Positions 8,124-30,170 of a stretch of DNA of 34,864 bases are shown here, piece by piece. A program made the position numbers and the translations under genes. The notes under the pieces are model-generated. The model searched no databases and had not been told where the DNA came from. It was given only the letters and a program-made list of their open reading frames with translations. The first letter of the stretch is position 1. Each line of letters begins with the position of its first letter. This DNA is from Eubacterium sp. (GTDB lineage: Bacteria > Bacillota > Clostridia > Lachnospirales > Lachnospiraceae): positions 1 to 34,864 of the forward strand of contig JAFUDC010000059.1 in NCBI GenBank assembly GCA_017459345.1. The letters run 5' to 3'.

Positions 8124-8143
8124 TAAGACCTGATATATATTAC

Positions 8144-8177
8144 GGGCTGCTGCACTTTATGTGCAGCAGCCCTTTTT
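8144..8177 (+). terminator. Rho-independent terminator after ispH-rpsA
   Basis: A perfect 12-bp stem, GGGCTGCTGCAC with GTGCAGCAGCCC, encloses a TTTAT loop and is followed by TTTTTATA. The convergent PAP2 gene ends at its 3' edge. Confidence 0.9.
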
Positions 8178-8682
8178 ATATCTTGAGACCAACAATACAG
8201 GTGATTCCTGCAGCCAGTATTCCAAGAACCGCTCCCCATAGCACATCCCCGGGAAAATGTACTCCTCCCGCAACCCGGATGACTGCCAGTCCCATGCCGC
8301 AGACCAGCACCAGGATACCGGCCGCGGGGTTAATACCAAGCCAGAGTCCCCCGATCAGCATGATGGAGAAGACATGGCGGCTGGGGAAGGACCGTCCCCG
8401 TTTTTCTTTGGCAATCAGAGGTTTTATGGGGTAGACCTCGTAGGGCCGGGGATAATTGCGGACTCTGCGATAGACTGAGATGAAGAAAAAAGCCAGGCCA
8501 GGCAATATAATATACACAAGCAGCTTCTGCAGAGGATACCGGTACAGGATCAGCCACAGCAGGAGGGGGTACATGGCAAAGCCCAGACCGGTAAAGAGGT
8601 AATTGGCTCCGCGGATCACCATCATTATTAAAGGATTTGAGCGTATTCGGTCAGCCCATAGATTATAGTTGTTGTAATTCAT
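8176..8682 (-). CDS. PAP2-superfamily membrane phosphatase
   Basis: A 168-residue integral membrane protein with about five hydrophobic segments and the three PAP2 (type 2 phosphatidic acid phosphatase) signature parts: RRVRNYPRP, SFPSRHVFS (the usual PSGH is PSRH here) and IRVAGGVHFPGD, which holds the catalytic histidine and aspartate. Such enzymes dephosphorylate phosphatidate, phosphatidylglycerol-phosphate or undecaprenyl pyrophosphate at the membrane; which one cannot be told from sequence. The start codon has GGTGAGG 5 nt upstream on the minus strand. It stands alone between the S1-fusion terminator and the promoter of the secreted protein gene. Confidence 0.88.
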   Translation of the reverse strand: MNYNNYNLWADRIRSNPLIMMVIRGANYLFTGLGFAMYPLLLWLILYRYPLQKLLVYIILPGLAFFFISVYRRVRNYPRPYEVYPIKPLIAKEKRGRSFPSRHVFSIMLIGGLWLGINPAAGILVLVCGMGLAVIRVAGGVHFPGDVLWGAVLGILAAGITCIVGLKI

Positions 8683-17768: not shown

Positions 17769-18620
17769 TTACCTCATTCCCAAAAGCTCAAGGGCATTAC
17801 CGGAAAAGATATGCTCCATTTCTATGTCAGTAAAGGGCATACTCTTCACCCTGTCCACATAGTCCTTCTGGTCTGCCCAGGGGGAATCTGTGGCAAAGAG
17901 AATCCTGTCGGTTCCGTGCTTTCTGCAGAGCCTTACGAAATCTTCGTGGGACAGATTGCTGGGTATATATGGCGGGGTGGGGTCCCCTTCTGCTCTTTCT
18001 ATGGGTCCTATGGCAAAGCCGGTGTCCAGCCATACCGGCGCACCGGCAAGGTCCCGCTCCACATCATCCCAGCAGGCCCAGCCTCCCATGTGGGCCAGCA
18101 CGAACTTTGGCGGGTGAATCTGATCAATGACTTTCAGGATATGCTTTACCGAAGAGTAATCATGGTCAAAGATTCCGATATCGATGCCGGCGTGGATCAG
18201 GACGATCATGTCAAGCTCGGAGGCTGCGTCGATGACGTGCATCATGTTGATGTCATCCAGATCCACCTCCTGGTAGGCCGGATGGAGCTTGATTCCTTTG
18301 ATGCCGTTATCCTTCAATATCTTTAGCTGGTCTCTGTAATTTTCATAAGCCGGGTGCATACACCCCAGGGTGATAACACCGCTTTTAAGCATGTCCTCCT
18401 GATTCCGGATCATGGTCTGATTCAGCTTCTCCACCTGCCCCACATTGGTTGCCACCGGCAGATTGATGGAGTAATCGATACCGGCTTTCTTCATGGAAGA
18501 GGAGAGAGCGGATATGGAGCCATCAGTCCAAGGTCTGCTGTGAGAAACGGTGGAAAGGTGATGAACGGTTTTTGCTGCAATCTTATCAGGAAATGTATGG
18601 GTATGAAAGTCTATAATCAT
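17769..18620 (-). CDS. Amidohydrolase_2-family metal-dependent hydrolase or decarboxylase
   Basis: A 283-residue TIM-barrel protein of the amidohydrolase-related (ACMSD-like) group. The metal ligand motif HxH is in IIDFHTHTFP at the N-terminus, followed by KLHPAYQ, LIHAG, VLAHMGG and the catalytic Asp in FATDSPW. The start is ATG at 18620 with GGAGG just upstream on this strand; the longer open frame would run through the REP-like repeat. The family includes hydrolases and non-oxidative decarboxylases. It follows the LysR gene in the same direction, divergent from the sulfonate operon, so it may prepare a conjugated or carboxylated sulfonate for cleavage. That role is inference. Confidence 0.85.
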   Translation of the reverse strand: MIIDFHTHTFPDKIAAKTVHHLSTVSHSRPWTDGSISALSSSMKKAGIDYSINLPVATNVGQVEKLNQTMIRNQEDMLKSGVITLGCMHPAYENYRDQLKILKDNGIKGIKLHPAYQEVDLDDINMMHVIDAASELDMIVLIHAGIDIGIFDHDYSSVKHILKVIDQIHPPKFVLAHMGGWACWDDVERDLAGAPVWLDTGFAIGPIERAEGDPTPPYIPSNLSHEDFVRLCRKHGTDRILFATDSPWADQKDYVDRVKSMPFTDIEMEHIFSGNALELLGMR

Positions 18621-18649
18621 GGTGTCCTCCAGAGTATTTGATATTAAAT

Positions 18650-18716
18650 GGGAGACATGGAACGGGTCTCTATCTCCCGAAAAAATAGGGAGACAAAGAC
18701 CCGTCCCTTGTCTCCC
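18650..18716. repeat. REP-like inverted pair (two 29-nt palindromic units head to head)
   Basis: Unit 1 (18650-18678) starts GGGAGACATGG and ends TATCTCCC. Unit 2 (18688-18716) lies on the opposite strand and starts GGGAGACAAGG and ends TTGTCTCCC. The units agree at 25 of 29 positions, each folds into its own hairpin, and together they can form a long cruciform. The core GGGACGGGTCT resembles, from memory, the REP sequences mobilised by RAYT (Y1) transposases in Firmicutes. The pair lies between the LysR and amidohydrolase genes. Confidence 0.75.
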
Positions 18717-18726
18717 TTCCAATATT

Positions 18727-19638
18727 TTATGACATTTTGCCGTAACTGTAAAGAGCCGATTTTAGGATATCCATAACTCTTTCCTCCTTGAGGCTTGATC
18801 TGTAGCTTGTACTTTCGATATATCCCAGCTCAAAGGTCAGGTCATAATCGGATACAGGAAGTCCTTTGATTAGGCCGTTTTTAACATATATATCATTCTC
18901 CATCATGTGTTTTGGAAAGAATGTGGAATAGTCTGATCTGGAAACCATAGTTTTTATAAAATCCGGATTGTCGCTTACCAGGTTGACGTCCGGATAATCT
19001 TTTTTCTGAAAGAGTTCGGTGATACCGCCGTTATCCTTTTTGAATTCATCTCCGTAAGCAATCAGCTTCTGTTTTCTGAGCTCCTTAAGAGCGACTGATG
19101 ATTTCTCCCATAATGAAGACTGTCTTCCGACATAAAGCAGGTACTCATCCTGAAACAGAGGAGTATACTTGATATCTTTATAATTCTTAAGATAAACCCC
19201 GCATACCACGATACCCAGATTGGCATAGCCGGATGATACATCCTTTGCAATATCTCTGCTTTCTCCAATGTTGAAAGAGAGGATCAAACCGGGATTCTTT
19301 TCTTGAATCTGAATAACTGCCTCCGGCAGTATGCTGCTTAAAGGACCAGGGATGCAGCCAACAGAGACAGTTCCGGTGAGCTGGCTGCTGTCTGATGCTC
19401 TGATGATATTGTCCTGGGCTTCAAAGATGAGCTTTGCCTGGTCCAGGACGTAGTTTCCATATTCCGTCACAGTGATGCCGGTATTGGTTCTCTTTAATAA
19501 TGATACCCCCAATTCCTTCTCCAGCCTTGATATAGATGAAGAAAAAGAAGATTGTGATATATAATTCTGCTCCGCTGCCACGGATATAGAATGGTATTTT
19601 ACTGCTTCCATGAAACAGAAGAGCTGGTTTAACTGCAT
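18727..19638 (-). CDS. LysR-family transcriptional regulator
   Basis: A 303-residue regulator with an N-terminal winged HTH (residues 1-60: FCFMEAVKYHSISVAAEQN, SSFSSSISRLEKELGVSLLKR) and a periplasmic-binding-protein-like effector domain (about 90-295). The ribosome binding site AGGAGGAAG is 6 nt before the ATG on this strand. It is divergent from the SsuA-type gene across a 356-nt regulatory gap, the classic LysR layout, so control of sulfonate uptake and cleavage is likely, by analogy with CysB/Cbl/SsuR-type regulators. The effector is not known. Confidence 0.93.
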   Translation of the reverse strand: MQLNQLFCFMEAVKYHSISVAAEQNYISQSSFSSSISRLEKELGVSLLKRTNTGITVTEYGNYVLDQAKLIFEAQDNIIRASDSSQLTGTVSVGCIPGPLSSILPEAVIQIQEKNPGLILSFNIGESRDIAKDVSSGYANLGIVVCGVYLKNYKDIKYTPLFQDEYLLYVGRQSSLWEKSSVALKELRKQKLIAYGDEFKKDNGGITELFQKKDYPDVNLVSDNPDFIKTMVSRSDYSTFFPKHMMENDIYVKNGLIKGLPVSDYDLTFELGYIESTSYRSSLKEERVMDILKSALYSYGKMS

Positions 19639-19718
19639 CGAATCTTCCTCCTGAAAATGAGTGGGATAAATATATCATATAAACATATATAGTAAATATG
19701 TAATAAACATTAAGAATG

Positions 19719-19748
19719 ATTATAATTCATATATCTCATATTTGTCAA
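19719..19748 (-). promoter_or_regulatory. Consensus promoter of the LysR gene
   Basis: Read on the minus strand, TTGACA (19748-19743), an 18-nt spacer and TATAAT (19724-19719) form a full-consensus promoter about 80 nt before the LysR start. It lies in the divergent 19639-19994 gap. Confidence 0.75.
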
Positions 19749-19771
19749 CTATGAATTTTTGGTTTGATTAT

Positions 19772-19800
19772 CTTTTATGCCTGATATAATTAAATAAAAC
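19772..19800 (+). promoter_or_regulatory. Candidate promoter of the sulfonate operon
   Basis: GTTTGA (19772-19777), a 17-nt spacer and TGATATAAT (extended -10, hexamer 19795-19800). It would give a leader of about 190 nt before the SsuA-type gene. A second, weaker candidate is TTCCCA / TATAGT at 19867-19895. ATAGGT (19821-19826) and ACCTAT (19848-19853) form a spaced inverted repeat just after the first start. Confidence 0.55.
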
Positions 19801-19910
19801 CCTGATTTTAAATAGGTTAAATAGGTAATATATCATTTTTCGTTAGCACCTATCAGTTTTTCATACTTCCCAAATGTTAAAAAAGAGATTATAGTATGGT
19901 CAAACAAGAT

Positions 19911-19937
19911 AAAACATATCTGAAAAGTATGTTTTTT
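19911..19937 (+). other. T-tailed hairpin in the leader of the SsuA-type gene
   Basis: AAAACATA (19911-19918) and TATGTTTT (19928-19935) are perfect inverted arms around a 9-nt loop, followed by TT. It could be a weak attenuator or an operator. Confidence 0.4.
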
Positions 19938-19945
19938 AACTGACA

Positions 19946-19964
19946 GAGTTTCGCAATTATCTAA
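19946..19964 (+). repeat. Dispersed motif copy b (GAGTTTCGCAATTATCTAA)
   Basis: It shares TTTCGCAATTATCT with copy a at 14462 and lies about 30 nt before the SsuA-type start codon. Confidence 0.5.
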
Positions 19965-19994
19965 AAGAATTTTAAGCGGGAAAGGAGTATGAAC

Positions 19995-20996
19995 ATGAAG
20001 AAAAGATTATTGGGAATCACTTTAGCATTGATATTGGCTGCAGGTCTGATCAGCGGCTGCGGCGGAAGTTCCTCCGCAGGAGAAAGTACCGGAAGCGCAG
20101 GCGGCGAACAGAAGGTTTTAAGGCTGGGAGCTCAGACCTATCCCTTATATTCTTCCATAGACCTGGCTCATGAGCTTGGATATATCGAAGAGGAATTGAA
20201 CAAGGTGGGAGCGAAGGAAGAATGGACCAATTATGATTCGGGCCCCCTGGTTAATGAAGCAGTCGCAGCAGGAGAGGCTGATGTGGGATTCATGGCTGAC
20301 CTTCCGGCTATCAATGCCAGATCTACCGGACAGGACATTCAGGTGGTCTCCAATGTGGCGACAGGGGAAAGATCTCTGGCCGTGCTGGTTCCGGCAGATT
20401 CAGATATCACAGATATCAGCCAGCTTAAGGGCAAGAAAATAGCTTATGCCACCGGCTCCTACGCCCAGCATCTCCTGGCCCTGGTGCTTGATCAGGCAGG
20501 ACTTACATTTGATGATGTGGAATCCGTCAACCTTGGTGCCGCTGACAGTCCGGCGGCTATGGAGAATGGCCAGGTGGATGCAATCGTCATCTGGGAGCAG
20601 TTCATCACCAAACTTACCACCGAGGGTAAGGCAAAGGTTCTCATTGACGGAACCGGCATCAAGAAGAGCAACATGGTCATCTATGCAGTGAAAGACTATG
20701 CCCAGGCTAATCCCGAGGTGATTGAGGCCTTTATCAAGGCAGCTGACCGGGGTGCCCAGTATATAAAGGAGAACCCGGATGATGCGGCCGCTAAGCTTGC
20801 ACCTGTATATAATGTGACAAAAGATCAGATGAAGACCATCTTCGGAAACTTTGAGTTTACGGTATCCCTCACCGATGATGACATCGCAGAGATTACCAAG
20901 GTTGCAGATTATGCTTATGATGCAGGCATTATACAAAACCAGGTAAAAGCAGATGAATTTATCAATACAGATTACTTAAAGGAAGCAGGATACTAA
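19995..20996 (+). CDS. SsuA/TauA/NMT1-type sulfonate ABC transporter, substrate-binding lipoprotein
   Basis: A 333-residue periplasmic-binding-protein-like lipoprotein. The signal peptide ends in ISGC with lipidated C22. The mature part has the SsuA/NMT1 features RLGAQTYPLYSSIDLAHELGYIEEEL and ADVGFMADLPAINA, and the KGKKIAYATGSYAQHLLALVL segment of the second lobe. The start is ATG 19995, 7 nt after AGGAG; ATG 19989 would be 1 nt from it. The family binds aliphatic sulfonates, taurine or nitrate-like anions, but also pyrimidine precursors, so the sulfonate call rests on the neighbouring sulfite-lyase and sulfite reductase genes. Confidence 0.88.
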   Translation: MKKRLLGITLALILAAGLISGCGGSSSAGESTGSAGGEQKVLRLGAQTYPLYSSIDLAHELGYIEEELNKVGAKEEWTNYDSGPLVNEAVAAGEADVGFMADLPAINARSTGQDIQVVSNVATGERSLAVLVPADSDITDISQLKGKKIAYATGSYAQHLLALVLDQAGLTFDDVESVNLGAADSPAAMENGQVDAIVIWEQFITKLTTEGKAKVLIDGTGIKKSNMVIYAVKDYAQANPEVIEAFIKAADRGAQYIKENPDDAAAKLAPVYNVTKDQMKTIFGNFEFTVSLTDDDIAEITKVADYAYDAGIIQNQVKADEFINTDYLKEAGY

Positions 20997-20997
20997 G

Positions 20998-21762
20998 ATG
21001 CAGAAAAACAGTCCAGGGTTCATCACTGATCTCTTATGGAGGATTACGCTGCCGGTTCTGGTGCTGATCCTCTGGGAGATGGTATGTCATCTGAACCTGG
21101 TAAATGTGATCAGCATGCCTCCGCCAGAGACGGTTTTAAAAGCAGCTTTTACGACCATAAAGGATGGAAGCCTTCCGGCCAATATAGTGGTCAGCTTTCT
21201 AAGAGTTCTGGAAGGCTTTCTGATTGCCACATTGCTGGCTCTGATCCTGGGAATCGTCACAGGCCTGCATCCTAAAGCAGAGGCATTTACTGAGCTGCTG
21301 ATTCAGATTATCAAGCCTATTCCCCCCATCGCCTGGATTCCTCTGGCAATCCTTTGGTTCGGGATTGGGGAAAGCTCCAAATTATACATCATTTTTATCG
21401 GTGCCTTCTTTCCGGTCCTCCTCAATACAGTTTCCGGAATCCACAGCATTGATCCAAGATACCTGGAGCTGGCCAGGGTGTATGAGGTGGACCGGTTCCG
21501 CCTCATCACCCGGGTGATCCTGCCCGGGGCCCTTCCTTCCATTCTTACGGGAATCCGGGTAGGCCTGGGCAACGCCTGGGTCTGCGTGGTTGCCGCAGAG
21601 ATGATTGCGGCGACCAGAGGAATCGGCTACATGCTGTCCAACGGACGAAGCATGTCCCGGTCAGACCTGGTTATCCTGGGCATGCTGCTCATCGGCATCG
21701 TTGGAAAGCTGATGGATGATTTTCTGAAATATGTTTCACGGAAATTAGTAAAATGGACCTGA
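20998..21762 (+). CDS. SsuC/TauC-type ABC transporter permease
   Basis: A 254-residue membrane protein with about six transmembrane helices and the BPD_transp_1 EAA loop (ARVYEVDRFRLITRVILPGALPSI-type, near residues 159-182), which docks the ATPase. The segments PIPPIAWIPLAILWFGIGESSK and IGYMLSNGRSMSRSD are typical of the SsuC/TauC group. The ATG is 1 nt after the stop of the binding-protein gene, so translation is likely coupled. Confidence 0.93.
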   Translation: MQKNSPGFITDLLWRITLPVLVLILWEMVCHLNLVNVISMPPPETVLKAAFTTIKDGSLPANIVVSFLRVLEGFLIATLLALILGIVTGLHPKAEAFTELLIQIIKPIPPIAWIPLAILWFGIGESSKLYIIFIGAFFPVLLNTVSGIHSIDPRYLELARVYEVDRFRLITRVILPGALPSILTGIRVGLGNAWVCVVAAEMIAATRGIGYMLSNGRSMSRSDLVILGMLLIGIVGKLMDDFLKYVSRKLVKWT

Positions 21763-21793
21763 CCAGCTGAGTATGTTCAGGGAGATAAGAGCC

Positions 21794-21812
21794 AGTTTCA
21801 CAATTACCCGGA
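21794..21812 (+). repeat. Dispersed motif copy c (AGTTTCACAATTACCCGGA)
   Basis: A diverged copy of the motif at 14462 and 19946, about 30 nt before the ATPase start codon inside the transporter operon. Confidence 0.4.
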
Positions 21813-21841
21813 GTATAACAAATTAGAAAGAGAATTCTTAA

Positions 21842-22609
21842 ATGAATCATATATCAGAAACAGCCGTACACATATCAAATCTGAATAAATCCTTTGATGA
21901 CCTTAAGGTCCTTACGGATATCAGCCTGGATATCAAAAAAGGAGAGTTTCTGTCGGTAATCGGCGTCAGCGGATGCGGCAAGAGCACCCTGCTCCGCATC
22001 ATCGGAGGTCTGGAAACCAAAACAGAGGGAACTCTGCTGGTCAATGGCCAGGAGGTGGAGAAGCCTTCCAGGAAGATTGGCTTTGTCTTTCAGGATCACA
22101 GACTCCTGCCCTGGCTGACGGTGGAGGAGAACATCAAGCTTGCTCTCGACCGCAATCAGCCGGATGCCGACAGGCTGGTGAAGGAAAATCTGGAGCTAGT
22201 GGGGCTTGGGGATTTTGCAAAGTCCTATCCCGGACAGCTGTCCGGGGGGATGGCCCAGAGGGTGGCTATTGCCAGAGCCCTTTCCAACAAGCCGGATATC
22301 CTCCTCCTGGATGAACCTTTCGGGGCCCTGGATGCCATGACCAGGATCAACATGCAGCAGGAGCTGAGAAGAATCTGGCAGCAGGAGAAGATTACCATGA
22401 TCCTCATCACCCATGATATTGAGGAAGCCATATTCTTAGGGGAGAGAGTGGTTGTCTTATCCAGCAGACCAGGCAGGATCAAGAAGACGGTTCCCATCGA
22501 GGAAATCTGTCATATTCAGAGGACCGGAACTGCATTTTCCTCCACCAGAGACCTGATATTCAAGGAGTTCTTCCGCGATGAGGAGCTGCCTTTTGCCTAC
22601 ACCATATAG
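21842..22609 (+). CDS. SsuB/TauB-type ABC transporter ATPase
   Basis: A 255-residue ATPase with Walker A GVSGCGKST at residues 41-49, a Q loop in VFQDHRLLPWLTVEEN, signature LSGGMAQRVAIARAL, Walker B LLLDEPFGALD (D157, E158) and switch histidine in ILITHDIEEA. It energises the neighbouring permease; HRLLPWLTV is a hallmark of the nitrate/sulfonate/taurine ATPase group. The ribosome binding site is weak. The gene ends 10 nt before the sulfite-lyase ATG, whose binding site GAGGAGG lies in that gap. Confidence 0.93.
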   Translation: MNHISETAVHISNLNKSFDDLKVLTDISLDIKKGEFLSVIGVSGCGKSTLLRIIGGLETKTEGTLLVNGQEVEKPSRKIGFVFQDHRLLPWLTVEENIKLALDRNQPDADRLVKENLELVGLGDFAKSYPGQLSGGMAQRVAIARALSNKPDILLLDEPFGALDAMTRINMQQELRRIWQQEKITMILITHDIEEAIFLGERVVVLSSRPGRIKKTVPIEEICHIQRTGTAFSSTRDLIFKEFFRDEELPFAYTI

Positions 22610-22619
22610 AGGAGGTTCT

Positions 22620-25085
22620 ATGAGCGAAAAAATATTATCCATGCAGGAAAAAAGGCTCCTGCATAAGATCACTTCCAATAATCCCAACCGGGCCATCAGC
22701 CTGATCGGGCGTGTGCGGGGAGTGAAGCCTCAGATCGATATTGAGAGAGGATTGATCTTTACCAGATCATTTAAAGAGACAGAGGGGCAGCCCCTGATTC
22801 TTCGGTGGGCCAGGGCCCTCTATAAGTATGCCAGGGAGAGTTCGGTCATTATAGAAGATGGCCAGCTGCTGGCAGGAAGGGCGGGAAGCTCAGCCCGCTA
22901 CGGCATCCTCTATCCGGAACTTGACGGGGACACCCTGGGAATCAACATCGAGAAGCTTCCGGGAAGAAGCACATCTCCCTTCGATATCTCGGAGGAGGCA
23001 GCCCGCATTGTAAAGGAGGAAATCGAGCCTTACTGGAAGGGGAAGACCTATCACGAGGAGCTTGCCATCGCATTTCCTGAGGATACCAGAAGACTGACCT
23101 ACAATCCTGACCAGGAGTCATCCTCCAGGTTTATCGTCAATGAGACCTCTTCCTACCGGTCATCCATCCAGTGGGTCCATGACTACGAGATTGTCATGAA
23201 GAAGGGCTTCCTGGGAATCCGCCGGGAGATGGAGGAGAAGCTTGCGGAACTTGATGAGGACAGTGCCTATGACATGATGGAGAAGAAGCCCTTCATCGAT
23301 GCCCTGATCCTTACCTGTGATGCCATTATTCTCTGGGCCGGCCGCTATGCCGATGAGGCAGAAAGACTGGCAGGCCTTACAGAGGATGAAGGCAGAAAGC
23401 GGGAACTGACTCGTATTTCCCAAATATGCCGCCGTGTCCCTGCCAATCCTCCGGAAAACTTCCGGGAGGCAGTCCAGTCTCAGTGGTTTACCCAGATGTT
23501 TTCCAGGATAGAGCAAAAGACAGGAACCATCATCTCAAACGGCAGGATGGACCAATATCTTTATCCATATTATAAAAAGGATCTGGAAGCAGGGGTAATC
23601 ACCCCCTATGAGGCCCAGGAACTCCTGGAGTGCATGTGGGTGGAGATGGCCGCCTTTGTAGACCTCTACCTGTCTGAGTCAGGCGGGGCATTTAACGAGG
23701 GATATGCCCACTGGGAGGCAGTTACAGTAGGGGGGCAGACGCCGGAAGGAACAGATGCCACCAATGAACTGACCTACCTGATCCTTAAGTCCAAGAGGGA
23801 CTTCCCCATGAACTATCCGGATCTGGCGGCAAGGATTCATATCGGCAGTCCCAAAAGATACCTGGTGGAGGTGGCAAAAACCATCAAGGACGGTTCCGGC
23901 TTCCCCAAGATCATAAACGATGAGGAAGTGATTCCCCTGCTTTTATCCAAGGGAGCCGCATTTGAGGAAGCCTACGATTACAGTGTCTCCGGCTGCGCCG
24001 AGTGCCGTATGCCAAACCGGGATACCTATACCAGTCCTGGAGCCTACATTAACTTTGCAGCTGCATTGGAGATGACCTTATATAACGGAAAGATGCTTAA
24101 ATACGGCGATGAACTTCTGGGACTTGAGACAGGGAATCCGGAAGAATTCGCAGACTTTGAGGAATTCTTTGAGGCCTACCTGAAGCAGCAGAAGAATTTC
24201 ATCCGGCATGCCTTCCGCCAGCAATATCAGATCAATCATCTCAGGGCCAGACATTTTGCCAGCCCTCTGGGTTCTGCCCTGCAGAAACTATGCAGAGACT
24301 CCTTCACCGATCTCCACCAGGAGCACATTGAGGGCGGAATTGATCTAGGATACTTTGAGTTTATCGGCTACGGGACGGTAATTGATTCTCTTGCCGCCAT
24401 CAAGAAGCTTGTCTATGAGGATAAAACTTTGACCATGACAGAGCTTATCGATGCCCTGCGCCACAACTTTAAGGGGCATGAGGCAGTGAGACAGCGTCTG
24501 CTTAATGCTCCATCCTATGGGAATGATGAGGCTTATGCAGACCAGATCGGCCTGAGGCTTGATAAGGAAGCAGGCGACTTTGCCAGAAAATACGGGAAGG
24601 AATTCGGCGCCCATATCGACCTTCGCTATGTGCCCTTTACCTCCCATGTACCCTTTGGTAAGGTAGTCAGCGCCAGCCCCAACGGCCGCTTTGCCTGGAC
24701 GCCCCTGTCAGACGGGTCAAGCGCCTCCCAGGGAGCAGATACCAAGGGGCCCACAGCTATCTTAAAGTCCAATTTCAATACCAAGAACTGGAATAACAAC
24801 TACCGGGCCGCCCGCCTTTTAAATATCAAACTAAGCCCTTCCTGCGTTGACGGCCAGGATGGGACAGATAAGCTGGTACAGTTCATCGAAGGATTCTGCA
24901 GGCTTAAGCTCTGGCATGTCCAGTTTAATGTGTTAAATACCGACACCATGCGAAAAGCCCAGGAGCATCCCGAGGAATATCGTGATCTGCTGGTCAGGAT
25001 TGCCGGGTACAGTGCATATTTTACTGAGTTATCCAAAGACCTGCAGGATGACCTGATAGCCAGGACCGAACAGATGGCAATCTGA
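22620..25085 (+). CDS. islA: Glycyl radical enzyme, isethionate sulfite-lyase (IslA) type C-S lyase
   Basis: An 821-residue glycyl radical enzyme. The cysteine-loop motif is GCAE (C459, E461) and the C-terminal radical motif is RIAGYSAYF with G796. R180, Q184, W365 and R669 lie exactly nine residues before the R189, Q193, W374 and R678 that I recall as sulfonate- or substrate-contacting residues of Bilophila IslA. C468, E470 and G805 of that enzyme map with the same offset. IslA cleaves isethionate (2-hydroxyethanesulfonate) to acetaldehyde and sulfite. One recalled aromatic, F680, would be V671 here, so a related substrate is possible. The start is ATG 22620 after GAGGAGG. Context (sulfonate importer, activase, sulfite reductase) agrees. 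Numbers for the reference enzyme are from memory. Confidence 0.82.
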   Translation: MSEKILSMQEKRLLHKITSNNPNRAISLIGRVRGVKPQIDIERGLIFTRSFKETEGQPLILRWARALYKYARESSVIIEDGQLLAGRAGSSARYGILYPELDGDTLGINIEKLPGRSTSPFDISEEAARIVKEEIEPYWKGKTYHEELAIAFPEDTRRLTYNPDQESSSRFIVNETSSYRSSIQWVHDYEIVMKKGFLGIRREMEEKLAELDEDSAYDMMEKKPFIDALILTCDAIILWAGRYADEAERLAGLTEDEGRKRELTRISQICRRVPANPPENFREAVQSQWFTQMFSRIEQKTGTIISNGRMDQYLYPYYKKDLEAGVITPYEAQELLECMWVEMAAFVDLYLSESGGAFNEGYAHWEAVTVGGQTPEGTDATNELTYLILKSKRDFPMNYPDLAARIHIGSPKRYLVEVAKTIKDGSGFPKIINDEEVIPLLLSKGAAFEEAYDYSVSGCAECRMPNRDTYTSPGAYINFAAALEMTLYNGKMLKYGDELLGLETGNPEEFADFEEFFEAYLKQQKNFIRHAFRQQYQINHLRARHFASPLGSALQKLCRDSFTDLHQEHIEGGIDLGYFEFIGYGTVIDSLAAIKKLVYEDKTLTMTELIDALRHNFKGHEAVRQRLLNAPSYGNDEAYADQIGLRLDKEAGDFARKYGKEFGAHIDLRYVPFTSHVPFGKVVSASPNGRFAWTPLSDGSSASQGADTKGPTAILKSNFNTKNWNNNYRAARLLNIKLSPSCVDGQDGTDKLVQFIEGFCRLKLWHVQFNVLNTDTMRKAQEHPEEYRDLLVRIAGYSAYFTELSKDLQDDLIARTEQMAI

Positions 25086-25132
25086 GTAACTGTCAGGCAT
25101 TAACAAACGAACAGCAAAGGTTTCCGGAAGTA

Positions 25133-25969
25133 ATGAAAGAAACACTAATCGTATTTAATATTCAGCGATACTCCCTGCATGACGGGGACGGGATCCGCAC
25201 AGTCTTTTTCCTGAAAGGCTGCCCCTTAAGATGCTCTTGGTGCTGCAATCCGGAATCCCAGAATCCCAGGCCGGAGCTCATGTTCAGAAAGGGCAAATGC
25301 ATCGGAAAAGAGGAGTGCGGACAATGCGGGCAGTTGTGTCCGGAAAAAGCCATTCTATTTAAGCAGCATGAGGCACAGGTCGATTTTCATCTATGCCGGC
25401 AGTGCTTTGCCTGCGCAAAGCACTGCCCCTCCAGGGCACTTAAGGTGGTGGGGGAGAGCCGGGAGATAGAAGACCTGTTGGATATCGCTGAGCAGGATGC
25501 ATCCTTCTACTCTTCAGGAGGAGGCGGCATCACCCTGTCTGGAGGAGAACCCTTAAGTCAGCCGGGCGCTGTCCTCTTTCTGAAAAAGGCCAGGGAGAGA
25601 TACCTGAACACTGCCATGGAAACCTGCGGGTATGTTCCCAAAGAAAGACTACTTGAGGCGGCAGGGTATCTCAATCAGATATTCTTTGACATCAAGTCCC
25701 TTGATGATGACAGGCACAAGGCCTTTACCGGGGTATCCGGTCAGAAAATCAGGGAGAATCTTGAGGCCTTATGCCAGGTCTGGCCGGATCTGCCTAAAAC
25801 AGTCCGGACACCGGTAATTCCGGGCTTTAATGACCGTCCGGAAGAACTGGAAGCGATCGGTCAGTACCTTCATGGACTTGCCGGGGTGACCTGGCAGAAG
25901 CTTCCCTACCATACATACGGAGCCGGAAAGTATGAGATGCTGGGGAGGAAATATGAGATGCCGGTCTAG
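25133..25969 (+). CDS. islB: Glycyl radical enzyme activase (IslB type, radical SAM)
   Basis: A 278-residue radical SAM enzyme that installs the glycyl radical on the adjacent lyase. The SAM cluster motif is C30-x3-C34-x2-C37 in GCPLRCSWC. An inserted ferredoxin-like domain follows, with CIGKEECGQCGQLCPE and CRQCFACAKHCP (two [4Fe-4S] clusters, typical of non-PFL activases). Then come the GGE-type motif LSGGEPLSQP and the terminal LPYHTYGAGKYEMLGRKYEMPV. The protein stops about 20-30 residues earlier than most relatives, and no continuation is visible in other frames. It lies 47 nt after the lyase gene. Confidence 0.92.
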   Translation: MKETLIVFNIQRYSLHDGDGIRTVFFLKGCPLRCSWCCNPESQNPRPELMFRKGKCIGKEECGQCGQLCPEKAILFKQHEAQVDFHLCRQCFACAKHCPSRALKVVGESREIEDLLDIAEQDASFYSSGGGGITLSGGEPLSQPGAVLFLKKARERYLNTAMETCGYVPKERLLEAAGYLNQIFFDIKSLDDDRHKAFTGVSGQKIRENLEALCQVWPDLPKTVRTPVIPGFNDRPEELEAIGQYLHGLAGVTWQKLPYHTYGAGKYEMLGRKYEMPV

Positions 25970-25980
25970 CCGGCATGTAA
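25958..25980 (+). terminator. Hairpin overlapping the activase stop codon
   Basis: ATGCCGG and CCGGCAT form a perfect 7-bp stem whose loop TCTAG contains the stop codon. It is followed by GTAAGTTTAGT rather than a proper T tract, so it is a weak terminator or mRNA 3'-end element. Confidence 0.4.
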
Positions 25981-26010
25981 GTTTAGTCAGGATAATTATA
26001 GTTATTAAGG

Positions 26011-26102
26011 AGCCGGATTTTGTCTCGATTGCGAAGCAAGAGAGGTACAAAATCGGGCATTCGACAATTTAAGTCAGAAAAAAGCTTACGCTATCAGAGG
26101 AG
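26011..26102 (+). ncRNA. Structured leader element, copy 1 (candidate cis-regulatory RNA)
   Basis: A 92-nt element starting AGCCGGATTTTGT and ending in the ribosome binding site AGAGGAG of the sulfite reductase gene. Arms GATTTTGT and ACAAAATC enclose CTC-GA-TTGC-GAA-GCAA-GA-GAG; the outer GCC and GGC pair across a G-G mismatch. A second weaker hairpin uses CGAC and GTCA. It aligns without gaps to copy 2 (76 of 92 identical). A TATAGT -10 at 25997-26002 would place the transcription start at the element's 5' edge. Confidence 0.6.
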
Positions 26103-26111
26103 GAAGTTATA

Positions 26112-26978
26112 ATGGCAAAAATTGATTATGCAGGCCTGAAAAAAGGCGGTTTTATGCGCCAGAAGCAAAAAGGCAAATTCTCCTTGAGACTGCAGGTGGT
26201 GGCCGGCAATGTCACCGCCGAAAACCTGCGGGCCATCCAGGAGGTTGCAGATACCTACGGGGAAGGGTATGTTCATCTGACCTCCCGTCAGAGTATAGAA
26301 ATTCCCTTTATTGATTATGAAGATATCGAGGAAGTCAAGGCAAAGCTGGCGAAAGGAGGCGTCAAGCCCGGTGTCTGCGGGCCAAGAGTCCGGACTGTGA
26401 CTGGATGTCAGGGCGATCAGGTCTGTCCCAGCGGCAATATAGATTCCTATGATATCGCTAAGAAGCTGGATGCCAGATATTATGCCAGGGAGCTCCCTCA
26501 TAAGTTCAAGTTCGGCGTTACCGGCTGTCAGAATAACTGCCTGAAGGCGGAAGAGAACGATGTGGGCATCAAGGGTGCCCTGGATGTGAGCTGGAAGCAG
26601 GATAAATGTACTCTCTGCGGTGTCTGCGTCAAGGCCTGCCGGGAGGGTGTGATCAGCATTGAGGATGAAAAACTTACCTGTGACTTCAGCAAATGCAACC
26701 AGTGCGGCCGCTGTGTCAAGGCCTGTCCCTTTGACGCCTGGGAGGGTCAGAGGGCCTATCACCTCTCCTTCGGGGGATTATTCGGCAACAAGATTGCCCA
26801 GGGCGAGAGTCTGGTTCCCCTGGTGAAGGACGAGGAGACTCTCTTCCGGGTCACCGACGCAGCCATTACATTTTTTGCGGAAAATGCAAATCCCGGGGAG
26901 CGGTTTAAATTTACGGCCGACCGTGTAGGCTGGGACCAGCTGAAAATTAAAGTGCAGGAGGCATATTATGGCAAATGA
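26112..26978 (+). CDS. Small siroheme/[4Fe-4S] sulfite (or nitrite) reductase with ferredoxin domain
   Basis: A 288-residue protein of the nitrite/sulfite reductase superfamily in its short, single-module form. Residues 1-80 form the ferredoxin-like half domain (LTSRQSIEIPF). The siroheme-[4Fe-4S] ligands C99-x5-C105 and C139-x3-C143 are in TGCQGDQVC and TGCQNNC. Two more [4Fe-4S] clusters are at C166-x2-C169-x2-C172-x3-C176 and C195-x2-C198-x2-C201-x3-C205. It resembles AsrC and small assimilatory sulfite reductases; no AsrA or AsrB partner is present, so ferredoxin is the likely donor. It would reduce lyase-derived sulfite to sulfide. AGAGGAGG precedes the ATG. Confidence 0.85.
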   Translation: MAKIDYAGLKKGGFMRQKQKGKFSLRLQVVAGNVTAENLRAIQEVADTYGEGYVHLTSRQSIEIPFIDYEDIEEVKAKLAKGGVKPGVCGPRVRTVTGCQGDQVCPSGNIDSYDIAKKLDARYYARELPHKFKFGVTGCQNNCLKAEENDVGIKGALDVSWKQDKCTLCGVCVKACREGVISIEDEKLTCDFSKCNQCGRCVKACPFDAWEGQRAYHLSFGGLFGNKIAQGESLVPLVKDEETLFRVTDAAITFFAENANPGERFKFTADRVGWDQLKIKVQEAYYGK

Positions 26979-27216
26979 GATTACGATTGATGAGACCATC
27001 GATATCACGGATTCTGTGTGTCCCATGACCTTTGTCCGCACCAAGGCTGCCCTGGAGGAGATGGAGATCGGCCAGGTCTTAAGTGTGATCATGAACGACG
27101 GTGAACCAGCCGAGAATGTACCCCGCAGCATGAAGGATGAGGGGCAGCTGGTGCTGGGACTCAGGCAGCTTGAGAACGGGACTTATCAGATGCTGGTAAA
27201 GAAGCTGGAAGAATAA
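26968..27216 (+). CDS. TusA/YedF-family sulfurtransferase-like protein
   Basis: An 82-residue protein of the TusA (SirA/YedF) fold, with the sulfur-relay cysteine C18 in DSVCPMTFVRTKAAL and the GQVLSVIMNDGEPAENVPRSMK segment typical of the family. The usual CPxP motif is CPMT here. TusA-like proteins carry persulfide or deliver sulfur to acceptors; here it may shuttle sulfide-level sulfur from the reductase to the sulfur carrier. Its start overlaps the reductase gene by 11 nt, with AGGAGG (26956-26961) inside that gene, indicating tight coupling. Confidence 0.87.
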   Translation: MANEITIDETIDITDSVCPMTFVRTKAALEEMEIGQVLSVIMNDGEPAENVPRSMKDEGQLVLGLRQLENGTYQMLVKKLEE

Positions 27217-27242
27217 TATCTGAGAAAGGATAAGGAATAAAG

Positions 27243-27452
27243 ATGATATTGAATATTGCAGGGGAAAAGAAAGAGTACGAAGAAGGTATCACAGTTGCAG
27301 AACTGATTGAGGCGGAAGATGTGGAGACACCCCAGTATGTCAGTGTCTCAGTCAATGATGACTTTGTGGACTCTGCTGATTTTTCCACTTATAAACTTCA
27401 GGATGGAGACCAGATAGAGTTTATCTACTTTATGGGAGGAGGCAGCCGCTGA
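27243..27452 (+). CDS. ThiS/MoaD-like sulfur carrier with masked C-terminus (HcyS/CysO-like)
   Basis: A 69-residue ubiquitin-fold sulfur carrier (MILNIAGEKKEYEEG, then VSVNDDFV, then LQDGDQIEFIYFMGGG). Mature carriers end in GG so that the glycine can be adenylated and converted to a thiocarboxylate; this one ends in GGGSR, so the last two residues must be removed. The JAMM peptidase encoded downstream would do that. The same masked-carrier logic is known for HcyS/HcyD of Wolinella succinogenes and QbsE/QbsD of Pseudomonas. ThiS for thiamine is unlikely, as no thiG or thiH is near. Its stop overlaps the next ATG by 1 nt. Confidence 0.88.
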   Translation: MILNIAGEKKEYEEGITVAELIEAEDVETPQYVSVSVNDDFVDSADFSTYKLQDGDQIEFIYFMGGGSR

Positions 27453-28258
27453 TGGCAATGACCAATGAACAGCTGGAGCGCTATTCCAGACATATTATAT
27501 TAAAAGAAGTGGGTGTGAAGGGACAGAAGAAGCTCTTAAATGGCAAAGTGCTGATCATCGGCGCAGGCGGCCTGGGCGCCCCGGCGGCCATGTATCTGGC
27601 TGCTGCAGGTGTGGGAACTATCGGCATAGCGGATGCGGATGTGGTTGACCTGTCCAATCTGCAGCGGCAGATTATCCATGCCACCAGCGATCTGGGCAAG
27701 AAGAAGGTGGAATCTGCGGCGGAAACCATGCGGGAGATGAATCCCGATGTGACAGTCAATACCTATCATACTTTTGTCATGGCCAATAATATCCGGGACC
27801 TGATCAGGGATTATGACTTCATTATTGACGGTACGGATAACTTCCCGGCCAAGTTTCTGATCAACGATGCCTGCGTTCTGGAGGAGAAGCCCTTCTCCCA
27901 TGCCGGTATCATCCGCTTCAAGGGCCAGCTCATGACCTATGTGCCTGGAGAAGGTCCCTGCTACCGCTGTGTATTCAAGGAGCCGCCGCCGGCAGATGCG
28001 GTACCAACCTGCAAGCAGGCCGGTGTTATCGGAGCCATGGGAGGCGTGATCGGCAGTCTTCAGGCTATGGAAGCAGTCAAGTACCTGTTGGGAGTGGGAG
28101 ACCTGCTGACCGGCAGACTCTTAACCTACGATGCCCTGAAGATGGAGTTCCGGACCATCAAGCTGCCAAAGCAGGATAAAAAGTGTGCAGTGTGCGGTGA
28201 GAACCCAACCATCACGGAACCTGTTGACTATGCCCAGGCGGCCTGTGATTTGAAATAA
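27452..28258 (+). CDS. ThiF/MoeB/HesA-family sulfur-carrier adenylyltransferase (HcyF-like)
   Basis: A 268-residue E1-like enzyme that adenylates the carrier's C-terminal glycine. The ATP-binding motif is IIGAGGLGAPAA (G37-G42), then IADADVVDLSNLQRQIIH, DGTDNFPAKFLINDAC, zinc cysteines CYRC and CAVCG, and PTCKQAGVIGAMGGVIGS with the conserved cysteine. The ribosome binding site GGGAGGAGG (27434-27442) is made from the codons for the carrier's glycine tail, and the ATG overlaps the carrier stop (TGATG). No rhodanese domain is attached, so sulfur would come from sulfide or a TusA-like donor. Confidence 0.92.
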   Translation: MAMTNEQLERYSRHIILKEVGVKGQKKLLNGKVLIIGAGGLGAPAAMYLAAAGVGTIGIADADVVDLSNLQRQIIHATSDLGKKKVESAAETMREMNPDVTVNTYHTFVMANNIRDLIRDYDFIIDGTDNFPAKFLINDACVLEEKPFSHAGIIRFKGQLMTYVPGEGPCYRCVFKEPPPADAVPTCKQAGVIGAMGGVIGSLQAMEAVKYLLGVGDLLTGRLLTYDALKMEFRTIKLPKQDKKCAVCGENPTITEPVDYAQAACDLK

Positions 28259-28271
28259 ATGGTAAATTGTT

Positions 28272-28688
28272 ATGATATATATAAAAAAAGAGGACTATAA
28301 TTCCATAATCGATTACGGCAGAGAGGGCCTTCCCAACGAAGTATGCGGCCTTCTTGCCGGAAAGATTGAGGGCCGGGACCGGATTATTGAGAAAGTATAC
28401 TACCTGACCAACATTGATGCCAGCCCGGAACATTTTTCCATGGATCCCAGAGAGCAGCTTGCTGCCATCCGTGATATGAGAAAGGAAGGTCTCATCATGA
28501 TCGGAAACTTTCACTCACATCCGGAGACTCCCTCCCGTCCCTCTGAGGAGGATAAGAGGCTGGCTCATGATTCAAACAGCAGGTATCTGATTCTGTCTCT
28601 TGCTGATACAGAAAAACCCGTTCTGAGGGCCTTTATCATAAGGAACCATACGGAAGTGTCCATGGAGGAGATCAACATCAGTTCCTGA
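28272..28688 (+). CDS. JAMM/MPN+ metallopeptidase (Mec+/HcyD-like)
   Basis: A 138-residue zinc peptidase with a full JAMM motif: E23 in LPNEVCGLLAG, H81-S-H83 followed by seven residues, S91 and D94 (FHSHPETPSRPSEEDKR). Bacterial stand-alone members cleave after the GG of ubiquitin-like sulfur carriers, either to unmask the tail (HcyD, QbsD) or to release cysteine from the carrier adduct (Mec+). Both uses fit here, because the neighbouring carrier carries a two-residue mask. It lies 13 nt after the E1-like gene with a weak ribosome binding site, as last gene of the cluster. Confidence 0.92.
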   Translation: MIYIKKEDYNSIIDYGREGLPNEVCGLLAGKIEGRDRIIEKVYYLTNIDASPEHFSMDPREQLAAIRDMRKEGLIMIGNFHSHPETPSRPSEEDKRLAHDSNSRYLILSLADTEKPVLRAFIIRNHTEVSMEEINISS

Positions 28689-28716
28689 AAGCTTCTTTTC
28701 ATTTTCGTTTACCGGG

Positions 28717-28760
28717 CCATCTATTTACCTATTGAATAGATGGGTAAAATGGGTTATAAT
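28717..28760 (+). promoter_or_regulatory. Promoter with overlapping inverted repeat, upstream of leader element copy 2
   Basis: TTGAAT (28732-28737), a 17-nt spacer and TATAAT (28755-28760) form a near-consensus promoter. CCATCTATT (28717-28725) and AATAGATGG (28735-28743) are perfect 9-bp inverted arms covering the -35 box, a likely operator. The 28689-29027 gap also holds the structured element, a partial copy and a second promoter. Confidence 0.7.
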
Positions 28761-28772
28761 ATTAAGATAAGT

Positions 28773-28864
28773 AGCCGGATCTTGTCTCGATTGCATAGCA
28801 AAAGAGCTACAAGATCGGGCATCCGACAACATAAGTCGGAAAAAAGCTATTGCTTATAGAGGAG
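28773..28864 (+). ncRNA. Structured leader element, copy 2 (candidate cis-regulatory RNA)
   Basis: The same 92-nt layout as copy 1 with no gaps. The main stem is GATCTTGT / ACAAGATC, where the T-A pair of copy 1 has become C-G (compensatory change). The second hairpin is CCGAC / GTCGG, fully paired. It starts 13 nt after a TATAAT -10 box, so it would form the very 5' end of the transcript. It also ends in AGAGGAG, but no ATG follows directly. Confidence 0.6.
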
Positions 28865-28868
28865 AAAA

Positions 28869-28898
28869 TCTGGCAACCGACAGCATTAGTCAGAAAAA
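28869..28898 (+). repeat. Partial third copy of the element's 3' hairpin
   Basis: TGGCAACCGAC, a 7-nt loop and GTCAGAAAAA repeat the 3' hairpin segment of copies 1 and 2 (GGCATCCGAC ... GTCGGAAAAA) without the 5' stem, 54 nt downstream of the same hairpin in copy 2. Confidence 0.55.
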
Positions 28899-28926
28899 CC
28901 TGAGTTTTTAGACGAGGGGACTTAAG

Positions 28927-29031
28927 ATGACCGAGATTTTTTTATTGACAAATCCTTCTTATAAACCTATAATACATATTAGAAAAGTCGGAATTTATTA
29001 TACATTATTAGTTGAGGAGGAATGTTCATGA
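28927..29031 (+). CDS. Possible 34-residue leader ORF coupled to the Rrf2 gene
   Basis: ATG 28927 has GAGGGG (28914-28919) 7 nt upstream, and the frame closes with a TGA that overlaps the Rrf2 ATG (ATGA at 29028-29031). The peptide (MTEIFLLTNPSYKP...) has no recognised family. The consensus promoter at 28945-28973 lies inside it, so the ORF could be translated only from the upstream transcript. Chance is a real alternative. Confidence 0.25.
   Translation: MTEIFLLTNPSYKPIIHIRKVGIYYTLLVEEECS
28945..28973 (+). promoter_or_regulatory. Full-consensus promoter of the Rrf2-family gene
   Basis: TTGACA (28945-28950), a 17-nt spacer and TATAAT (28968-28973) sit about 55 nt before the Rrf2 start. A GTCGGAA half-site at 28987-28993, like that in the leader elements, lies just after the predicted transcription start. 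Confidence 0.85.
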
Positions 29032-29474
29032 AATTATCTAACAAAAGTCGTTACGGCCTGAGAGCTCTGGTAGATCTTGCGGTCAATTCTAAAGACGGAC
29101 ATGTGGCCCTTAATCTGATTGCTGAAAGGAACGGTATTTCTCCCCAGTACCTGGAGCAGGTTTTTGCAAGTCTCAGGAAGGCAGGTATCGTAAAGAGTAT
29201 CAAGGGGCCTCAGGGAGGATATTTTCTGGCCAGAGAGGCGGATCAGATCACTGCCGCTGATATATTGGAAGCCCTTGAGGGAACTTATTATCTGGAAGAG
29301 GAGAATATTTCGGAGATCCCGGCCCAGACCGGTATATCTGTAGCCATACAGGAGCTGCTGATCAACAGGATTAACCATGAGATGGATATCCTGCTTAATG
29401 ACATTAACCTGGCTGACCTTGAAAACTATTATATGGAACATAAATTGATTTCTGATGATATGTACTATATTTAA
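29028..29474 (+). CDS. Rrf2-family regulator, CymR-like (no Fe-S cysteines)
   Basis: A 148-residue winged-helix regulator (MKLSNKSRYGLRALVDLA; HTH in GISPQYLEQVFASLRKAGIV; wing IKGPQGGYFLA). The IscR/NsrR cysteine triad is absent; the region where it would be reads YYLEEENISEIPAQTG. The whole, including the closing MYYI, recalls CymR, the cysteine-metabolism repressor of Bacillus and Staphylococcus, which works with CysK instead of an Fe-S cluster. The start is ATG 29028, 7 nt after GAGGAGG; ATG 29022 would be 1 nt from it. Position after the sulfur genes supports a sulfur-control role. Confidence 0.88.
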   Translation: MKLSNKSRYGLRALVDLAVNSKDGHVALNLIAERNGISPQYLEQVFASLRKAGIVKSIKGPQGGYFLAREADQITAADILEALEGTYYLEEENISEIPAQTGISVAIQELLINRINHEMDILLNDINLADLENYYMEHKLISDDMYYI

Positions 29475-29620: not shown

Positions 29621-29679
29621 GTCTAGCTCAAAAATGATTCCTTGAAATGGCCTTAAAGTTCGAAAGGAGTATCAACACT

Positions 29680-30168
29680 ATGAAAAAGCTTATTCTTCCT
29701 ATCCTGGCAGGAGTCCTGCTGATTGCGGCAGCAGCTGTTTTTCTATTCACTCCGGCTTCAGTAAAAAAGGATGCCTCATCCACTGAGGAGCCTTCAGTTG
29801 AGGGCCGTATTCTGATTAAGACTGCTGACCTTAAGGAGGATGAGGTGACATTTATCCGGGCAGGAGGGGACAGCAGGATTGAGCTGATTGCCCGTCTGGG
29901 AGCAGACGGGAAGCCGAAAGTCGCTCTTGGAACCTGTCAGTCCTGCAATGGAGCCCCTGGTGCCTATTACAGCCAGGATGGTGACGTCCTTCAGTGCAAC
30001 AACTGCGGCCTGACCTTCCCTCTGGAAGTGATTGACCAGCCGGGAGGTGGCTGCCATCCCATTACCATCGATGAGACCATAATTGAGAGTGAGAAAGATG
30101 GTATCTCTATTGATATGGATAAACTGAGTCAGTACGAAGATTTATTTACATCGGTGAAGGAGCATTGA
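29680..30168 (+). CDS. DUF2318-family membrane-anchored metal-binding protein
   Basis: A 162-residue protein with an uncleaved-looking N-terminal membrane anchor (residues 2-25, KKLILPILAGVLLIAAAAVFLF) and an outward domain of the DUF2318 / FtrD-like type: CQSCNGAPGAYYSQDGDVLQCNNCG plus GGGCHPI, i.e. two CxxC pairs and a Cys-His, likely binding a metal or Fe-S centre. The start is ATG 29680, with AAAGGAG 10 nt upstream; an in-frame ATG at 29647 lacks a site. It is followed after 2 nt by the HMA-SafE fusion, so the two probably act together in metal handling at the membrane. The metal is not determined. Confidence 0.82.
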   Translation: MKKLILPILAGVLLIAAAAVFLFTPASVKKDASSTEEPSVEGRILIKTADLKEDEVTFIRAGGDSRIELIARLGADGKPKVALGTCQSCNGAPGAYYSQDGDVLQCNNCGLTFPLEVIDQPGGGCHPITIDETIIESEKDGISIDMDKLSQYEDLFTSVKEH

Positions 30169-30170
30169 CC

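Follow-up and report, generated by a model that had tools for sequence, protein, structure and literature searches.

The window analysed here, a contig of 34,864 nucleotides from a Eubacterium species of the Lachnospiraceae (GenBank assembly GCA_017459345.1, contig JAFUDC010000059.1), carries between positions 17,769 and 29,474 a gene cluster that joins a sulfonate lyase to a sulfur carrier module. We read it as an anaerobic assimilation cluster that would bring the sulfur of isethionate to homocysteine by way of a protein thiocarboxylate, a reading to which we give a probability of roughly three in four (0.77). From 19989 to 28688 the plus strand encodes, in order, SsuA-, SsuC- and SsuB-type importer proteins, an IslA-type lyase, its activase, a small siroheme sulfite reductase (Sir), a TusA-like protein, a ThiS-like sulfur carrier, an activating enzyme (E1) and a JAMM metallopeptidase, with gaps of 1, 79, -32, 47, 142, -11, 26, -1 and 13 bases. 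The value of -32 reflects an overlap of open reading frames (ORFs); it becomes a gap of about 10 bases with the lyase start at 22620, which on sequence grounds is more likely than the one at 22578. A first-pass annotation, made from the sequence alone, had proposed this gene list and its colinearity. Family matches bear out both and add a minus-strand amidohydrolase that had gone unnamed. The family scores, together with recurrence in other genomes, exclude a chance assembly of the cluster.

The sequence of reactions that we infer for this organism begins with import of a C2 sulfonate, most likely isethionate, by SsuABC. The activase would install the glycyl radical on the lyase, which would split isethionate into acetaldehyde and sulfite, and Sir would reduce the sulfite to sulfide, perhaps relayed by the TusA-like protein. 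Trimming of the masked tail by the JAMM peptidase would expose the carrier's glycine pair (GG), the E1 would adenylate this end, and sulfur would then form the carrier thiocarboxylate. From there, a MetY-type enzyme whose gene lies elsewhere in the genome would move the sulfur to activated homoserine, and the JAMM peptidase would free homocysteine from the carrier. Assimilation is favoured because the genome has a lone small Sir and lacks PF01507 and PF01747, and because, as had been claimed at first pass, no aldehyde-using enzyme is found among the cluster genes, to which this search was confined.

Features of the cluster. Positions are those of the window, except in the last two rows, which belong to loci L169 and L178 of other genomes.
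Feature	Positions	Strand	Evidence
Amidohydrolase (Amidohydro_2)	17769..18722	-	Pfam PF04909, 67 bits
LysR-family regulator, divergent from importer genes	18727..19638	-	Pfam HTH_1, LysR_substrate
SsuA-type sulfonate-binding lipoprotein	19989..20996	+	TIGR01728, 198 bits (cut-off 163.5)
SsuC-type ATP-binding cassette (ABC) permease	20998..21762	+	PF00528
SsuB-type ABC ATPase	21842..22609	+	PF00005
Glycyl radical enzyme, IslA-type sulfite-lyase	22620..25085 (ORF opens 22578)	+	PF02901, PF01228; phmmer against the Protein Data Bank (PDB); pocket
Radical S-adenosylmethionine (SAM) activase	25133..25969	+	TIGR02494, 310 bits (cut-off 174); CxxxCxxC at residue 30
Dispersed repeat copy 1 (about 100 nt), just upstream of Sir start	26006..26105	+
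Small siroheme sulfite reductase (Sir), two-cluster ferredoxin insert	26112..26978	+	PF01077, PF03460
TusA-like protein	26968..27216	+	PF01206, 72 bits; CP motif at residue 18
ThiS-like sulfur carrier, masked tail FMGGGSR	27243..27452	+	TIGR01683, 66 bits (cut-off 37)
ThiF/MoeB-type E1 activating enzyme	27452..28258	+	PF00899, 293 bits; GxGGxG, two CxxC
JAMM/JAB metallopeptidase	28272..28688	+	PF14464, 79 bits; exact HxHx10D at residue 81
Dispersed repeat copy 2	28768..28867	+
Rrf2 regulator, CymR-like	29022..29474	+	PF02082
Arylsulfotransferase-family protein (L169)	15398..16924		similar start
Arylsulfotransferase-family protein (L178)	6692..8188		PF05935

The lyase and its likely substrate

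The lyase passes the NCBIfam model NF048011, named HpsG, with 1417 bits against a cut-off of 1000. Searched against the PDB with phmmer, however, it scores higher with 5ymr (1160 bits; table name formate acetyltransferase, which we take to be IslA) and 7kq3 (1157 bits; IslA) than with 6lon (1075 bits; presumably HpsG). HpsG was dropped as a name for the protein, since these scores favour the IslA chains and the pocket is IslA-like. All ten residues in a mutagenesis table of IslA are kept in the window, namely R189, I192, Q193, W374, C468, E470, R678, V680, F682 and G805 (PMC8473560). The catalytic cysteine and the glycine of the radical site, C468 and G805 in IslA, align with C473 and G810 of the window; the sulfonate-binding R189, Q193 and R678 and the hydroxyl-binding E470 are its R194, Q198, R683 and E475.

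In a pocket alignment of 92 rows, window included, from 87 distinct contigs, R189, Q193, W374, C468, E470 and R678 are invariant (92/92), and activity is undetectable in the IslA variants Q193A, R189E, R678E, C468S and E470Q (PMC8473560). Position 682 is F in 87 rows, Q in 4 and V in 1. The rows with Q or V make up a divergent set, L011 and L035 to L038 in our numbering of loci; two of its members, L035 and L036, carry the module yet belong to this set, so their substrate is less certain. At positions 682 and 192 the window has F and I, in agreement with both IslA rows; in the HpsG row the two residues are I and L.

Relatives of the lyase are encoded in 337 GTDB stretches, of which only the best 80 were kept, a choice that biases the set toward near kin. 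The six closest (77-80%) come from Lachnospiraceae, Lachnospira, Clostridiales or Eubacterium, with rumen or omasum named for 3. In 29 of the 80 loci the lyase has an aminotransferase gene nearby (counted from 50% identity upward); its assignment to class III comes from L029 only. There, an iron-containing alcohol dehydrogenase beside it scores 192 with the SarD model, under the cut-off of 700. Such a pair may convert taurine to isethionate. Neither enzyme is found in the window's cluster, the only part of the genome searched for them, which makes imported isethionate the simplest substrate here. Five Bifidobacterium loci (L087, L088, L094, L095 and L098) also have the lyase and activase, and four of the five have aminotransferase and SsuABC-type genes as well, hinting at sulfonate use there.

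On the importer side, the solved chain nearest to the SsuA-type protein is 2x26, an aliphatic sulfonate-binding protein. For the permease, NCBIfam ranks SaoP ahead of SsuC and TauC, all under their cut-offs.

The carrier module and its recurrence

The window's Sir has the siroheme/4Fe-4S motifs CX5C at 99 and CX3C at 139 in addition to two ferredoxin clusters, and its nearest solved chains are F420-dependent sulfite reductases. The carrier's residues continue past its GG, as expected of an HcyS-type carrier, and the adjoining E1 (268 aa, ThiF domain only) and JAMM peptidase have intact motifs. The relatives' carriers are alike: among 13 listed, 12 of them distinct, 11 distinct separate proteins have, as in the window, the ending YFMGGG with one or two further residues. 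Carrier and E1 share one frame in L126 (257-1255), a ThiS-ThiF fusion that would leave the GG in the interior of the protein. A second, divergent pair of JAMM and E1 (29-35% and 43-44% identical) occurs near metY or cysDN in L049 (14802-16298), L053 (19937-21475) and L183.

The source genome is a 2.96-Mb draft in 188 contigs, 97.4% complete, of which the window is contig 17. PF01507 (CysD and the phosphoadenylylsulfate (PAPS)/adenylylsulfate (APS) reductases) and PF01747 each gave 0 matches in it, and its single NIR_SIR protein is the window's Sir. A siroheme synthase is encoded on contig C2 and MetA on C54. NCBIfam models found no cysK or metY in the window, where 30 ORFs were scanned, in keeping with the first-pass claim, which had placed the last step elsewhere. 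Five strong pyridoxal phosphate enzymes of cysteine and methionine metabolism are present in the genome, and the cluster-type metY does lie outside the window, at G000:C156:17254-18456. Its product is 50-65% identical to the cluster MetY proteins, except for the type in L034 and L092 (40%), which is nearer to an enzyme on C70 of the same genome. The C156 and L009 proteins score 398 and 411 with TIGR01326, below the cut-off of 495, so they may be a subclass of O-acetylhomoserine (OAH) sulfhydrylase.

The first-pass annotation had suggested searching other genomes for the two halves together, and ThiS, ThiF, TusA and Sir genes do stand beside the lyase in 12 other distinct genomes: L009, L035, L036, L049, L050, L052, L063, L072, L079, L089, L114 and L126. 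Three of these (L009, L035 and L036) are further loci from a genome search, outside the GTDB best 80; L030 and L063 are one contig and were counted once. When a locus was taken to qualify with at least three of the five module genes (Sir, TusA, ThiS, ThiF and JAMM) in its fetched flanks, 10 of the 80 GTDB loci did so. Of these, L053 qualifies only through the divergent JAMM gene, with no ThiS in reach. Many contigs stop early; when only the 36 GTDB loci whose flanks reach 9.5 kb or more in each direction from the lyase are counted, 8 qualify.

Gene order varies among the carriers. L079 matches the window gene for gene between SsuA and JAMM and continues with metY, and in L089, where the importer is missing, the match covers lyase to JAMM; in the window and in these two, Sir-TusA-ThiS-ThiF-JAMM comes directly after the activase. 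Elsewhere metY precedes Sir (L035, L072 and L114), ThiS precedes Sir (L009, L049 and L052), or the module lies upstream of the lyase (L050) or on the opposite strand (L063 and L126). A metY gene, counted at 50% identity or more, is in the fetched stretch beside the lyase in 10 of the 12 genomes, which points to homocysteine. On a lyase tree built by a quick method without a mixture model, with L038 flagged as a long branch, the state of the module needs at least 8 changes, and its carriers fall in seven separate places. A clade of 21 rows that holds the Desulfo-named genomes has no member with three of the five module genes (0/21; 10 of the rows with full flanks).

A survey of 392 genomes of the order found the lyase (E<=1e-200) in 14 and Sir (at least 50% identity) in 45. 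Sir occurs in 13 of the 14 lyase genomes and in 32 of the 378 others, for a Fisher p of 1.4e-12 (1.1e-11 without the window's genome) in a test that ignores kinship, which inflates significance. Where both are present, Sir is on the lyase contig in 7 of 13 genomes, about 1-20 kb away. We also fetched 20 of the 32 Sir-positive genomes that have no lyase. JAMM, E1 and carrier genes lie near Sir in 19 of them (the exception is L181), metY in 16, and CysD, CysN or AprA in 12; with the module beside sulfate-reduction genes in these 12, the lyase looks like an exchangeable front end. Two of the eight without CysD, CysN or AprA, L169 and L178, have an SsuABC-type importer and an arylsulfotransferase-family protein near a metY-Sir-carrier module, and sulfate esters are a possible third front end, judging from these genes. 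The module itself thus seems to be a sink for sulfite in general, to which different front ends can be fitted, and its likely product is homocysteine.

Regulators, repeat and flanking genes

The regulator at the right end had been called CymR-like. It is an Rrf2 protein, and its solved-chain matches include CymR (2y75 and 3t8r) after 4cic, an unnamed Rrf2 protein; with 110 bits it is below the cut-off of 195 of the NCBIfam CymR equivalog. It has no cysteine and ends in MYYI, and a C-terminal isoleucine is linked to CysK binding in other partners (PMC4961446). The LysR regulator has no NCBIfam model over its cut-off among the matches listed (25 of 53). Beyond the Rrf2 gene, at 29647-31484, lie FtrD-like and HMA-DsbD genes; DsbD relatives also occur near the lyase in L081, L082, L089 and L093.

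The repeat has 41 matches in the genome at E<=0.01. It forms a predicted hairpin with paired changes (GATTTTGT/ACAAAATC and GATCTTGT/ACAAGATC), and of 30 copies inspected, 21 have their end at most 30 nt ahead of a same-strand ORF or just overlap it, against 0 of 30 for an opposite-strand ORF. The GAGGAG at its 3' end may be a ribosome site. Rfam gave no match on the window and its intergenic regions, the repeat included, and the repeat was not found in the related loci.

Alternative readings, known systems and meaning

Several observations weigh against a single assimilation cluster, besides the kinship mentioned above. Between the importer-lyase half and the Sir-carrier half lies a gap of 142 bases with one repeat copy in it, and the 333 bases between JAMM and Rrf2 hold the second copy and a promoter match (from a scan for promoters and terminators by consensus matching only); with these gaps, the genes may belong to more than one transcript. 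In 6 of the 13 genomes with both genes, lyase and listed Sir are on different contigs, although in one of the six, G262, a second Sir piece adjoins the lyase at a contig end. Fewer than three of the five module genes lie in the flanks of 28 of the 36 full-flank loci, so the link of lyase and module is common, not required. L052 and L126 have no close metY. Neither the LysR nor the Rrf2 gene, nor the amidohydrolase gene, is conserved beside the lyase in the related loci at E<=1e-15, and the two regulators thus give no support for a shared regulon. Isethionate is also cleaved by HpsG (PMC13219744), so the substrate of the window's lyase may be broader. Finally, the fragmented state of the draft weakens the absences reported for this genome, which are not proof.

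The first of these points leads to the strongest competitor, in which two independent operons happen to be adjacent, one desulfonating for a general supply of sulfite and the other a carrier module using any sulfite. The gap with its repeat copy would fit, as would the opposite orientation of the module in L063 and L126 and the presence of Sir, with carrier genes beside it in nearly all sampled cases, in genomes that have no lyase. We nevertheless consider this arrangement rather doubtful, since the union recurs in seven places of the tree, L079 repeats the order exactly, and a search of the genome with two sulfate families turned up no further source of sulfite. The lyase might instead act mainly on another sulfonate, such as dihydroxypropanesulfonate, the activity of HpsG. 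This is suggested by the score with the HpsG model and by the variation of Ile192 among IslA homologs (PMC8473560). It is an unlikely reading in view of the higher scores of the IslA chains, the F682 and I192 that the window shares with them, and the aminotransferase (class III in L029) of 29 loci, which fits a route from taurine to isethionate.

Two further alternatives carry far less weight. The first demonstrations of IslA came from bacteria that respire sulfite or sulfate (PMC6386719, PMC6453916), and sulfite released by the lyase could serve as electron acceptor, as in Bilophila and Desulfovibrio. Given that the small Sir is the only NIR_SIR protein found in the genome, and that the lyases of Desulfo-named genomes form a separate clade devoid of qualifying modules, we regard such respiration as very improbable. 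That the ThiS, ThiF and JAMM proteins serve thiamine, molybdopterin or protein conjugation is, by a little, the least probable of all: ThiS and MoeB/ThiF models do match the carrier and the E1, but metY accompanies the module in most loci both with the lyase and without it. The assimilation cluster remains our preferred reading, and the first-pass interpretation as a whole is supported.

Its closest counterpart is in Wolinella succinogenes, where an HcyS/HcyF/HcyD/Sir/MetY pathway, said to have been described by Krishnamoorthy and Begley in 2011, reportedly makes homocysteine from sulfate. Masked carrier, E1, JAMM peptidase, Sir, MetY and the homocysteine product would be common to both. By contrast, the window puts a sulfonate lyase and a sulfonate importer in front, and its metY lies outside the cluster.

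The module also resembles operon class 4e of Iyer, Burroughs and Aravind (2006; PMC1779556, row 4e), already listed for Gram-positives of low GC (guanine plus cytosine) content: a ThiS/MoaD-like protein, an E1 without rhodanese, a JAB protein, a SirA-type protein and a sulfite reductase are in both, and OAH sulfhydrylase is part of the class list. The row differs in holding sulfate transport and reduction genes, of which the window cluster has none, and no sulfonate lyase is named in the available part of the paper (PMC1779556). The other half is that of the IslAB systems, with the same lyase, activase and pocket (PMC6386719, PMC6453916, PMC8473560), and IslA homologs had been noted in Clostridia and Negativicutes (PMC6386719). 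Characterised IslAB feeds sulfite respiration, often with tripartite ATP-independent periplasmic (TRAP) transporters and microcompartments (PMC6453916), in contrast to the window's ABC importer and assimilatory module. In Rhodobacter, islAB restores isethionate as a sulfur source to an R. capsulatus mutant, ssuCAB with isrBHDK enables isethionate use by R. sphaeroides, and one sentence calls IslAB assimilatory in passing (PMC11423573). IsrBHDK of R. capsulatus shares with the window anaerobic use of isethionate sulfur, SsuCAB import and a sulfite intermediate; it is, however, a nitrogenase-like reductase and not a glycyl radical enzyme, and no carrier module is mentioned in the available part of that paper (PMC11423573). 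Among the open-access papers searched, with subscription papers mostly outside that set, we found no paper joining isethionate with thiocarboxylate and none treating two of HcyS, HcyD and HcyF together. As the first-pass annotation had it, each half is known separately; their union is a recurrent variant for which we found no published description.

These properties inspire a broader proposal, on which we are evenly divided: in fermenting gut and rumen Clostridia the cluster would provide a low-sulfide route, on which sulfonate sulfur is built into homocysteine on a carrier with little free H2S, an IslA front end having replaced the sulfate one of an exchangeable carrier module. Older work reportedly credits fermenters, Clostridium pasteurianum among them, with assimilation of sulfur from sulfonates, and the cluster supplies candidate genes for such use of sulfonate sulfur by fermenting anaerobes without O2. 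One sulfur-carrier module with alternative front ends, for sulfate, sulfonate and perhaps sulfate esters, would amount to a testable gene-order rule for sulfur source. The cluster also suggests that islA in gut metagenomes is a poor marker of sulfide production in the absence of accompanying dsr genes. If the low-sulfide route is real, many of the islA genes there would instead point to assimilation of sulfur.

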